Assembly: GCA_022827905.1 (NCBI GenBank)
Contig: JAJEIQ010000060.1
Coordinates: 1-37,881 of the forward strand
Length of the DNA: 37,881 bases
From: Pseudomonadales bacterium
GTDB lineage: Bacteria > Pseudomonadota > Gammaproteobacteria > Pseudomonadales > Azotimanducaceae
Reading direction: 5' to 3'
Below are positions 18,601 to 33,346 of this stretch, one piece after another. Every line of letters starts with the position of its first letter. Positions within the stretch are counted from its first letter, which is position 1. The position numbers and the translations under genes are program-made. The notes below the pieces were generated by a model that worked only from the letters and a program-made list of their open reading frames with translations, searched no databases and was not told the DNA's origin.

Positions 18601-18801
18601 GGAGCGAGGGCGTCCCGCCCTCGAACCAAGCCGCCCGGACTCCAATCGAGGGCAAGATGCCCTCGCCCCGACGGCGGCCTCCCCGGAGCGAGGGCGTCCC
18701 GCCCTCGAACCAAGCCGCCCGGACTCCAATCGAGGGCAAGATGCCCTCGCCCCGACGGCGGCCTCCCCGGAGCGAGGGCGTCCCGCCCTCGAAATGCCGC
18801 T
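18601..18801. repeat. 84-bp tandem repeat of GAGGGC palindromes
   Basis: Two complete 84-bp units and a partial third start at 18601, 18685 and 18769. Each unit holds two hairpins: CGAGGGCG-TCC-CGCCCTCG and CGAGGGC-AAGAT-GCCCTCG. The full copies look identical, implying recent duplication. The array lies between yggS and proC and fills most of the gap; the rest (18802-18877) shows nothing recognisable. Related palindromes occur at 26701-26915, 30178-30243, 33216-33302 and 33827-33865. Confidence 0.92.
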
Positions 18802-24839: not shown

Positions 24840-25724
24840 CTAAGCGGCCGCCAATTCGCGTTCGTCGGCCGCCTCGTCGATGGCTACCGCGGCCTTCAGC
24901 TTCTTGAGGGCGTTCTTCTCCAACTGGCGAATGCGCTCCGCGGAGACGCCGTAGCGTTCGGCCAAGTCCATGAGGGTGGTCTTGTCCTCATTCAGCCAGC
25001 GCGCCTGGATGATGTCCCGGCTGCGCTCGTCCAGGTTGGCAATGGCCTCGCCGAGCCGGGCGCGGGAGATGTCCAGCCAGTCCTCGCTGGCCACCAGGTC
25101 GGCGGGGTCGGCGTCGCTGGCCGGCAAGTAGTGGGCCGGGGCGCTGCTGGCATCGTCGTCTGAATCCACGCCGTCGAAGGCGACATCCACCCCCGCCAGC
25201 CGGCTTTCCATGCGCGAGACCTCCGCCTCGGGCACGCCCAACTCGTCGGCCACCGCCTTGGTTTCCGCCGGATTGAGCCATGCCAAGCGCTTCTTGGCGC
25301 TGCGCAGGTTGAAGAACAGCTTGCGTTGGGCCTTGGTGGTGGCCACCTTGACGATGCGCCAGTTGCGCAGGATGTACTCGTGCATTTCGGCCTTGATCCA
25401 ATGCACGGCGAAGGACACCAACCGCACGCCCACCTCCGGGTTGAACCGCTTGACGGCCTTCATCAGCCCCACGTTGCCTTCCTGGATCAGATCCGCCTGG
25501 GGCAGCCCGTAGCCTTGGTAGGTGCGGGCCAAGTGAACCACGAAGCGCAGATGGCAGAGCACCAGTTGGCGGGCGGCTTCGAGGTCGTTGTCGTAGTAGA
25601 AACGCTCGGCCAACGCCTTTTCCTCCTCCGGGGAGAGGATGGGGAAGGCGCTGATGGTCTGCACGTAGCTGTCCAAGTCCGCTCCCGGGGAGAGACTTTG
25701 CAAGGAAAGTACGTTGGTTGACAT
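24840..25724 (-). CDS. rpoH: RNA polymerase sigma-32 factor
   Basis: Heat-shock sigma factor. The 294-residue product has region 2 motifs [19 protein letters not shown] and [19 protein letters not shown], the diagnostic RpoH box QRKLFFNLR (133-141), and a region 4 helix-turn-helix in [19 protein letters not shown]. The ATG at 25724 ([11 protein letters not shown]) fits pseudomonad starts; another ATG six codons earlier is possible. In most relatives rpoH follows ftsX; here it lies between trmB and coaD on the opposite strand from ftsYEX, so the block has been rearranged. Confidence 0.95.
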
Positions 25725-25782: not shown

Positions 25783-25879
25783 CACCCATTGCCGCCCCGA
25801 GGTTAGACCCCCTTGCAGGCGTGCGGGTTCACCGCCCGGCCCTTTCTTCATGGGGACGATTGCGCGGATTTCAACCCCA

Positions 25880-26145
25880 AGTGCTCCATCAAGGTGATAA
25901 TTGCCAATCAGCGCGTCCGCAAGCGCTCAGATGCGCGGCGGAGGCCCGCAGTCGTATCCCGCCATACGTCAAGGGCCGACAACAAAGCAGATGGGCGCTT
26001 GCGGGCGCGCCCTGCGGGTGACAGCGGGAGCGCCCCGGACCGCGTTGCGCCCGCTTGAAGTAGTGCGCCTACGTCTGCGCGACCGCGCCTTGCCCGGAAC
26101 GCTCCCGCTGCCACTGATAGGCAATTATCACCTTGATGGAGCACT
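25880..26145. mobile_element. 266-bp structured element with 30-bp inverted ends (MITE-like)
   Basis: Terminal arms 25880-25909 and 26116-26145 are inverted copies matching at 29 of 30 positions (arm starts AGTGCTCCATCAAGG). Inside lie two further inverted repeats placed end to end: 25911-25926 with 25995-26010 (15 of 16), and 26018-26038 with 26094-26114 (18 of 21). Together they predict a closing stem enclosing two hairpins. No open reading frame of note is inside, and no obvious target duplication flanks it. The right arm encodes the last five residues and stop of coaD. It is probably a non-autonomous mobile element; a structured RNA is the alternative. Confidence 0.72.
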
Positions 26146-26616
26146 AGTTGCGCTTAAGGCCTCGCGCACTGCGGGATGCACGAAATTGGTGATGTCGCCG
26201 CCGAGCGTGGCGATTTCGCGCACCAGGGTGGAGGAGATGAACGAGCAGTCCTTGGAGGTGGGCAGAAAGACGTACTCGATCTCCGGGTCCAGGGACTGGT
26301 TCATTTCCGCCATCTGGAACTCGTAGTCGAAGTCGGTGACGGTGCGCAGGCCGCGCAGGATGAAGGTGGTGTTGCGGGAGCGCACGTAGTCAACCAGCAG
26401 GCTGTTGAAGCCCTCCACCGAGACGCGGTCGCCGAATTCCGCCAGCACGGTGCGGCACAGCGCGATTCGATCCTTGAGGTAGTCCTCCGGATCCTTCTGC
26501 GCCGAAGTGCCGATGGCGAGAATCACCTTGTCGAAGAGATTCAACGCCCGCTTCACCAAGTCGGTGTGCCCATTGGTGATCGGATTGAAGGAGCCGGGAT
26601 AAACGACAATCGACAT
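26128..26616 (-). CDS. coaD: Pantetheine-phosphate adenylyltransferase
   Basis: Transfers AMP to 4'-phosphopantetheine in CoA synthesis. The 162-residue product has the nucleotidyltransferase motif NPITNGHTDL (H17), LRGLRTVTDFDYEFQMA, and ISSTLVRE (127-134). The ATG at 26616 fits the family start MSIVVYPGSF; the frame runs 29 codons upstream without support. The last five residues (SAPSR) and the stop lie exactly within the right arm of the inverted-repeat element at 25880-26145, so the native C-terminal tail appears to have been replaced. It lies downstream of rsmD, as is common, with a repeat array between them. Confidence 0.95.
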   Translation of the reverse strand: MSIVVYPGSFNPITNGHTDLVKRALNLFDKVILAIGTSAQKDPEDYLKDRIALCRTVLAEFGDRVSVEGFNSLLVDYVRSRNTTFILRGLRTVTDFDYEFQMAEMNQSLDPEIEYVFLPTSKDCSFISSTLVREIATLGGDITNFVHPAVREALSATSAPSR

Positions 26617-26700
26617 GGCGCGCCTTTTCCCCTGTGAAAAAAGGGGGTGATGGTAGCGATGACCGTGCGGGGAGGCAACAAAGAAAGGCATCCCCACTAC

Positions 26701-26915
26701 CAATCGAGGGCGGGACGCCCTCGCTCCGGGGACCCCGCTGCCGCCGCCAATCGAGGGCGGGACGCCCTCGGTCCGGGGACCCCGCTGCCGCTGCCAATCG
26801 AGGGCGGGACGCCCTCGGTCCGGGGGGTCGCTGCCGCCGCCAATCGAGGGCGGGACGCCCTCGGTCCGGGGGACCCCGCTGCCAATCGAGGGCGGGACGC
26901 CCTCGGTCCGGGGGA
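26701..26915. repeat. Five-unit array of GAGGGC palindromes, about 47-bp period
   Basis: The unit core CAATCGAGGGCGGGACGCCC begins at 26701, 26748, 26795, 26841 and 26883, giving periods of 47, 47, 46 and 42. Each core is a hairpin CGAGGGCG-GGA-CGCCCTCG followed by a GTCCGGGGACC-type block with small variation. It occupies most of the 309-bp gap between rsmD and coaD; 26617-26700 shows nothing else recognisable. The cores match the family at 18601. Confidence 0.92.
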
Positions 26916-29219: not shown

Positions 29220-30173
29220 ATGGCGGATAGCCCCAAGCAAGGGCCATGGCCCCGCACGTCCCACCGATGGGGTTGGTGGCGCGGGCATTGGCGCGTGGCG
29301 CGCGACGTCTTTTCCCTCGTATCGGTGCGCACCGGCACCAGCTTGCTGGTCTGGCTGCTGGTGGGCATCGCCTTGGCTCTGCCGGCCAGCCTCATGCTGT
29401 TGCAGACCAACCTGTCCCAGTTGGCCGCCGATTGGGGCGGCGGCCGTCCGAGCGTGTCCGTTTACATGGAACTCGGCGCGCTCAACGCCGCCGAATTGGC
29501 GGCGCAGCTTGAACGGCGGGCGGAAGTGGAGGCGGTGGCGCTGACCACCCAGGAGGAGGCCTTGGCGGAGTTCACCGCCTACACCGGCCTTGGCGATGCG
29601 CTCACCGGGCTTGAGCGCAATCCCTTGCCGGCCTCCCTGCGCCTGACCTTCGTGGCCGATGCCGGCGCCGACGCCCTGGAAGCGGTGGCCGCATCAATGC
29701 GCGAAGCGGAAGGGGTGGCGGACGTGGTGATCGAACGCACTTGGCTTACGCGCATCAACGCCATCTCCCGGCTGGCCCGCTCCCTCGGCCTCGTGTTCGG
29801 CGTCCTATTCGGCGTCGGCGCGGTCTTGGTGACGGCGACCACCGTGCGCTTCGCCATCGATTCGCAGCTCGACGAACTCAAGGTGATGAAGCTGGTCGGC
29901 GCGAGCGCCGGGCAACTGCGGCGGCCGTTCCTGTACTTCGGCGCGCTCTATGGCGCCGGCGGCGGCCTGGTGGCCGCCATGCTGGTGAGCTTGGGCCTCA
30001 TCGTCCTGGAGGCGCCGCTGCTCGACCTGCTCGGCAGCTTCGACCAAACCCTGGTTCTCGGCGGCTTCGACCCCGTCTTCGTAGCCGCCTTGGTCGGCCT
30101 CGGATCGGCCCTCGGCATGGCCGGCGCCATGCTCGCCGTCCGCCAACGCTTGGCGGGGCTAGAGGTGATGTGA
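29220..30173 (+). CDS. ftsX: Cell division permease-like protein FtsX
   Basis: Inner-membrane partner of FtsE. The 317-residue protein has one N-terminal membrane segment (about 40-62), a periplasmic domain (about 65-185) and three C-terminal segments (about 193-215, 240-265 and 284-308). The block IDSQLDELKVMKLVGAS is the family signature. A GGAAAG site precedes the ATG. The rpoH gene that usually follows is absent; a repeat lies downstream instead. Confidence 0.94.
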   Translation: MADSPKQGPWPRTSHRWGWWRGHWRVARDVFSLVSVRTGTSLLVWLLVGIALALPASLMLLQTNLSQLAADWGGGRPSVSVYMELGALNAAELAAQLERRAEVEAVALTTQEEALAEFTAYTGLGDALTGLERNPLPASLRLTFVADAGADALEAVAASMREAEGVADVVIERTWLTRINAISRLARSLGLVFGVLFGVGAVLVTATTVRFAIDSQLDELKVMKLVGASAGQLRRPFLYFGALYGAGGGLVAAMLVSLGLIVLEAPLLDLLGSFDQTLVLGGFDPVFVAALVGLGSALGMAGAMLAVRQRLAGLEVM

Positions 30174-30177
30174 CAGG

Positions 30178-30243
30178 ACGCTGATCCTCGGAGCGAGGGC
30201 GTGACTGAACGCTGATCCCCGGAGCGAGGGCGTCCCGCCCTCG
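30178..30243. repeat. Half and full GAGGGC palindrome after ftsX
   Basis: A 25-nt block (ACGCTGATCC, then the left half of the palindrome) occurs at 30178-30202 and again at 30209-30233 with one difference, 31 bp apart. Only the second copy continues into the full hairpin CGAGGGCG-TCC-CGCCCTCG (30225-30243). It lies between the convergent ends of ftsX and the serine hydrolase and could act as a shared transcription barrier. Confidence 0.8.
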
Positions 30244-33210: not shown

Positions 33211-33215
33211 CTTCG

Positions 33216-33346
33216 GAGCGAGGGCAAGATGCCCTCGTTCCGGGAGAGCGGCCAGGGCGAGGGCAGGATGCCCTTGTTCCGGGGAGCGGTCGGGGCGAGG
33301 GCATAACGAACCGAAGGTTCGCGCCCTCGCACGGCGCGTAGCGCCG
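33216..33346. repeat. Cluster of GAGGGC and nested palindromes after the deacylase
   Basis: Three hairpins follow the deacylase stop. CGAGGGC-AAGAT-GCCCTCG is at 33219-33237. A degenerate copy lies around 33256-33276. A nested one pairs GCGAGGGC (33295-33302) with GCCCTCGC (33323-33330) around GAACC-GAA-GGTTC (33308-33320). CGGCGC-GTA-GCGCCG (33332-33346) follows. The GAACC/GGTTC inner stem recurs at 37571-37587. The cluster separates two convergent genes. Confidence 0.82.

Follow-up and report, generated by a model that had tools for sequence, protein, structure and literature searches.

The window, by which we mean the whole stretch of 37,881 nucleotides analysed here, is contig C81 of a 4.44-Mb draft genome in 81 contigs. 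On its minus strand lies coaD, the phosphopantetheine adenylyltransferase gene (26131..26616, stop codon left out). The gene name is taken from the preliminary description, and the product matches Pfam CTP_transf_like with an E-value of 3.4e-21. The next gene downstream of coaD (24840..25724, minus strand), which we take by eye to encode an rpoH-like sigma factor, starts at the ATG of MSTNVLSL. At the downstream end of coaD sits an element that contains no gene. Since the outermost bases, A at 25880 and T at 26145, are part of the target copies on either side, the insertion unit is 264 bp (25881-26144, GTGCTCC...GGAGCAC) and not 266 bp. The right target copy is TA (26145..26146), and the left one (25879..25880), now AA, is read as a decayed TA. 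These limits were set from the inverted repeats, the fit at coaD and the TA rule given by other copies. Of 32 exact 12-mer inverted pairs that lie within 400 bp of each other in the window, the element accounts for 15; when the window was shuffled 20 times by mononucleotides, the count was 0-9. At the upstream end of coaD there is also a tandem array (26687-26914, period 47, 4.7 copies of CCAATCGAGGGCGGGACGCCCTCGGTCCGGGG...); units with GAGGGC occur at 18601-18793 as well, and others containing it at 30170-30233 and at 33213-33303.

The element is built from two terminal arms and a core. The left arm (25880..25911, plus strand) has 32 nt including the A of the target copy, the tip AGTGCTCC and the 3' end TCAG; the right arm (26114..26145, minus strand) is its inverted repeat, identical at 31/32 positions. 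The 30-bp inverted ends first reported are present, 29 of 30 bases matching between 25880-25909 and 26116-26145. The conserved core (25912..26114, 203 positions compared) takes in most of two hairpins, hairpin A (25911..26010; arms 25911-25929 / 25992-26010, helix 2) and hairpin B (26018..26114; arms 26018-26038 / 26094-26114, helix 3), with 98.5% and 87.4% of cells paired, respectively. The two inner inverted repeats described earlier were recovered by a repeat finder at 25911-25934/25987-26010 and 26018-26038/26094-26114, the outermost pair being 25880-25928/26097-26145, and folding gave the expected three-way junction of a closing stem and two hairpins. The fold energy is -167.4 kcal/mol on the plus strand and -171.2 on the minus strand (z of about -11 on both), and none of 200 shuffles folded as stably on either strand. 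In 7 of 14 copies (that of the window, G002b, G005a and G021a-d), but not in the other 7, mirror symmetry between the halves of the core was greater than in any of 100 shuffles. A promoter scan returned no site and a terminator scan three.

The right arm supplies exactly the last five codons and the stop of coaD, as had been proposed: on the minus strand, 26128-26145 reads AGT GCT CCA TCA AGG TGA, that is, SAPSR*. A coaD match was obtained in 16 of the 17 genomes searched, our own included, and when the 3' ends were compared, SAPSR occurred in none of the 15 relatives read, whose proteins end, for example, in ALEQSGEG*, ALEQSEGG*, ALAQPGRG* or ALGG*. Removing the element and one target copy leaves GCA ACT AGG GGT TGA (A-T-R-G-stop), i.e. 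REALSAT-RG*, and the element-free coaD aligns with G002 and G008, which run on GGGTTGAAATCCGC through the gap towards rpoH. The stretch from coaD into rpoH aligns in G002, G008 and G007; between our genome (G000) and G002, 439/461 positions of coaD and 128/148 of the coaD-rpoH gap are identical. Judging from these relatives, which are of other species, the native end was probably RG*. The element would then have entered coaD close to its end, at the TA in ...ACT AGG GGT TGA, and given the protein its present ending SAPSR* in place of RG*. The claim that the insertion replaced the native C-terminus thus stands in part: the end was changed, but only about two native codons and the stop were lost. 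coaD is a near miss, with the insertion two codons before the inferred stop. As the four aligned relatives have diverged at the coaD junction, where the left target copy is AA, the rule of insertion at TA had to be drawn from other copies.

Such copies were sought in relatives and are present. With these second copies, and with no SAPSR ending in the coaD of the relatives read, neither outcome that the preliminary description named as refuting it was seen. They occur in 8 of 97 genomes (our own included), and a search of the family gave matches in 18/206 genomes, again with our own, and in 8/37 genera, several of these being weak and partial only. There are several dispersed copies in genomes such as G005, G007, G021 and G052, as expected of an IS630-type MITE. 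Lengths fall into solo palindromes of 36 and 46 bp (in G000, G005 and G052), elements of 80-202 bp and elements of 264-325 bp. A TA lies to the right of 23 of the 24 elements tabulated and to the left of 18; L085 was counted among the 24 even though it is doubtful (arm identity 13/20). Empty sites were found by joined-flank searches, and 26 element-relative pairs were aligned (16 + 10). One TA lay exactly at the junction in 10 of them (G002a, 2/6; G002b, 1/3; G007b, 7/7), and the remaining 16, diverged or gapped, had none (G002a, 4/6; G002b, 2/3; G004, 2/2; G007a, 6/6; G007c, 2/2). Insertion at TA with duplication of the TA was thus seen at three different insertions of other copies. The copies in relatives and the single TA at the empty sites of other copies support the earlier suggestion of a MITE mobilised in trans. 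Distant blastn searches of plasmids yielded no match, nor did an exact 21-mer in viral contigs (0 matches).

Some further observations were made during these searches. One of 15 matches of the genome-contig pattern search falls in an Amylibacter MAG. Several AGTGCTCTATCCAGCT matches recurring beside GGGCTTCGAACCCAGG looked by eye like a tRNA gene and were left out of the element count. In L035:1486-1795 (G005:C57), a 46-bp solo palindrome adjoins a 264-bp copy as if inserted at its end TA. Two contigs of our own genome, L002 and L003 (G000:C42 and C41), start with 141 identical bases (1-141), which include the right end of a copy and 16 bases beyond, and then diverge. A further repeat, ...CACCGAAGTGCTCTTTCCCGTTCGTGGGC..., extends to the ends of two contigs and is found again in a third (L087, L088 and L089; G000:C22, C31 and C78). 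Finally, the element at L205:474-741 (G054:C55), AGTGTAGTGCGCCGCATGAATTGG..., is 268 bp long and matches the core weakly; its arms are near-exact and may be two nested ends.

The identification of the element as a MITE of IS630 type is well supported. An IS630 family IS from the same lineage, in G021, has terminal inverted repeats like those of the element. This IS of 1,248 bp encodes a DDE_3 transposase, ends in AGTGCTCCGTCAAG / AGTGTTCCGCCACAG and is flanked by TA; the score of its left end against the MITE ends was reached by 0/200 shuffles and that of its right end by 1/200. The 13 end bases AGTGCTCCGTCAA are common to its left end and to G021b and G021c, two MITEs in that genome, and the tip of the window element differs from them at one base in thirteen. 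ISs with transposases related to that of G021 have ends such as AGTACTCCGTCAATC and AGTACTCCAACAAG. When ten ends of five ISs were compared with the MITE ends, six had scores reached by at most 2/200 shuffles, and the other four by 15, 64, 73 and 161. Ends with at least 16/25 matching bases were found in only 8 of 27 transposase loci, in a scan biased towards AGTGCTCC-like tips because the search was seeded on them; four further transposase loci had no such ends. DDE_3 matches are present in 6 of 11 genomes, above the cut-off in five; none was found in G005, which has many copies, or in G150, G159, G054 and G052. Among the DDE_3 and transposase loci read, mostly from draft genomes, no IS carried the full arms of the window element, and in draft genomes a partner IS may have been missed. 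Two IS630-type transposases (L067:1378-2512 and L069:1378-2525) are each encoded in two frames that overlap. The break falls at one and the same position, where seven or eight A precede CG, an arrangement suggestive of a programmed frameshift.

From the tips that resemble those of IS630-type ISs in relatives, mobilisation in trans by a transposase of this type is the best reading. A transposase made elsewhere would bind the terminal arms, cut the element out and insert it at a TA, which would be duplicated. Taken as one explanation, an IS630/Tc1-mariner-type MITE with a putative transposase acting in trans, insertion at TA, and arms and core as modules accounts for the locus with high probability.

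An IS630-type MITE is an already known kind of element. RUP of Streptococcus pneumoniae, a MITE linked to IS630-Spn1, is 107 bp long, AT-rich and simple; it shares with our element the TA target, arms like those of an IS630 family IS, the lack of a gene and a tight fold with paired arms (PMC3049150, PMC2229807). Unlike RUP, the element here looks GC-rich, its long copies reach 264-325 bp, it has a two-hairpin core and its arms vary between copies. The Correia/NEMIS elements of Neisseria, called IS630-derived in one paper (PMC2817692), are likewise described in another as small, with terminal inverted repeats, TA ends, a stem-loop and one form fused to reading frames (PMC2229807), features that resemble ours; an exchange of core and arms is not described for them in the text consulted. 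ISY100 inserts at TA and duplicates it, and its arms are bound by an N-terminal domain with two helix-turn-helix motifs (PMC2170065). The target and its duplication are the same here, but ISY100 and the IS630 family ISs encode a transposase and the MITE does not.

Other explanations of the locus had to be weighed against this one. The reading frame of coaD is open through the arm, as it would be if the native end of the gene merely happened to be palindromic. This notion can practically be discarded, given that 0 of 15 relatives share the ending and that the same arms lie elsewhere in the genome, exactly at C41 and C42 and with one mismatch at C3. REP and REPIN elements are palindromic and located mostly outside genes, and the element here resembles them in both respects. 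The solo palindromes of 36-46 bp in G000, G005 and G052, together with Y1_Tnp matches in G000, G002, G003 and G008, would suit a palindrome of REP/REPIN type that is mobilised by a Y1 transposase (RAYT). We disfavour this origin as highly improbable, since no Y1_Tnp match was found in 7 of 11 genomes, including the many-copy G005, G007, G021 and G052, and our element duplicates TA. In addition, its tips are without the GTAG/GTGG head which, along with the Y1 transposase, is described for REPs (PMC2817692).

The preliminary description had also allowed for a structured RNA. This would be a regulatory RNA or an element of the 3' UTR, with a three-way junction selected as RNA. The fold is very stable, 35 of 71 pairs show two-sided change (0/500 shuffles reached any of five measures), and many copies lie directly behind genes and may be transcribed. 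However, no Rfam match in the window reached the gathering score, six loci of relatives gave only three matches to miRNA models, all in one long hairpin and below the gathering score, and palindromes of less than 50 bp with the same ends exist. The pairing itself holds in 94.5% of cells across 14 copies. On the plus strand, the non-Watson-Crick cells of hairpin A are 19 G-U and 3 A-C, and those of hairpin B are 3 G-U and 31 A-C (26/31 at two positions), so that the two hairpins lean to opposite strands, without an overall preference for either. In the closing stem, 4 of 434 cells are G-U and 8 are A-C; 20 of its 31 pairs changed on both sides, 9 are invariant, 2 depart only by unpaired cells and none changed on one side alone. 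Such a pattern would fit arms maintained as exact copies at the DNA level better than selection on an RNA. With no Rfam family, equal folding of both strands and a closing stem whose swaps are two-sided with few G-U, the RNA alternative did not hold up and we regard it as very unlikely.

We return to the IS630-type MITE and to the relation between its arms and its core. In five g1 copies (those of the window, G002a, G002b, G004 and G007a), the core is 92-99% identical over 203 positions, while the inner arm positions 12-30 are only 37-71% identical. G002a and G002b, from one genome, share 201/203 bases of the core and 14/38 of the inner arms, and the window element and G002b, from different species, have cores 97% and inner arms 47% identical. 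Both arms of each element nevertheless match one another, at 27-32 of 32 positions in 15 copies, two of them identical. Arm identity is 0.951 within elements vs 0.574 between them, a value as high being reached in 0 of 100,000 permutations of 28 elements (one duplicate dropped), which are not independent because many copies are related. The arms of G002b are nearest to those of G195a, of another genus (0.79), and its core to that of G002a (0.99); G005a and G005b show the reverse pattern (core 0.68, arms 0.88). G195b is closest to G102b in its arms and to G195d in its core, G195b and G195d having cores 0.91 and arms 0.46 identical, and G005a is closest in its arms to G007a and G005b and in its core equally to the window element, G002a and G002b. 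Within the single genome G195, clearly different arm types (0.35-0.52 identity) surround related cores (0.75-0.91), and in genus g37 the core is present with unrelated arms in most copies, e.g. AGTGGTCGAACACACTTGTAATGACC in G160 and AGTGTCACGTCAAGCCTC in G102. Between G005d and G005b, the block of positions 7-10 has changed in each of the two arms, the cores being identical at 199/201. From these comparisons it appears that terminal arms of about 32 nt, with a short common tip, and a two-hairpin core of about 200 bp behave as separate modules. This modular build, like the solo palindromes of 36-46 bp and the gene ends at the junction, goes beyond the preliminary description.

A partner IS, an exchange of arms and any role of the core are what we infer from this arrangement. 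The arms would carry the binding site specific for a transposase, and a core that received a new arm pair could thus be moved by a different IS630 transposase. Arm pairs would stay matched as each arm can serve, within the palindrome, as a template for its partner, and homologous recombination could exchange cores between co-resident copies. Without any swapping of ends, ordinary gene conversion may instead have homogenised the cores of copies that share a genome, with at least two old MITE lineages each retaining its arms, for which the chances are somewhat short of even. The cores of G002a and G002b, which differ at 2/203 in one genome, and the G195b/G195d pair fit that course, but it leaves unexplained the paired arm change within a lineage, between G005d and G005b, and sits poorly with the similarity of core, and not of inner arms, between the window element and G002b of a different species.

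A more tentative proposal, which we put forward as a plausible but less than probable course, is that the core, as a selfish module, outlasts any single transposase, repeatedly gains matched arm pairs and lands silently on stop codons. On this proposal, at least the arm types AGTGCTCC[A/T]TC, GTCAACCC, AGTGGTCGAACACACTTG and AGTGTCATGTCACCCC would represent different IS630 specificities, and a change in either arm would be copied to its partner through the palindrome. The G with which the element begins after the TA would let it land on TAA or TAG stops and restore a TAG at either of its ends, which would make such insertions silent. Among the open-access papers surveyed, no title or abstract opening named a MITE with exchangeable arms or stop-codon rebuilding.

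In 12 of 25 elements, TA together with the first G of the element makes up the TAG stop of a recognisable gene, the genes being alaS, gpsA, a desaturase gene, lpd, rplR, hemC, a PQQ dehydrogenase gene, a GcvT-like gene, an enoyl-CoA hydratase gene, holB, an integrase family gene and bolA; the ends of the desaturase gene and holB are less sure because the matched profile stops short of the protein end. At empty sites inspected by eye, a native TAA stands in frame at the alaS site (G008 and G000) and at the gpsA site (G008), and the rplR site in seven relatives has TAA in three and TAG in four. Two frames tested at the 46-bp G000 copy matched no protein family. With genes called by a heuristic, the background of stop-codon TA was 14/411 for all TA, 12/68 for YTAR and 6/25 for CTAG in the window, and 51/2,418 for all TA and 24/306 for YTAR in the pooled longer loci. 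The excess of 12/25 is large against all TA and moderate against YTAR (binomial, rate 0.15: 9.8e-5). Selection against damage is the plain cause of this excess.

Gene-end junctions of this kind offer mobile DNA a simple way into gene-dense genomes with little damage, and coaD, where the end of the protein was changed, is an instructive near miss. If arms and core truly reassort, a MITE family could switch the transposase on which it depends, which would address how MITEs persist after the parent IS has been lost.
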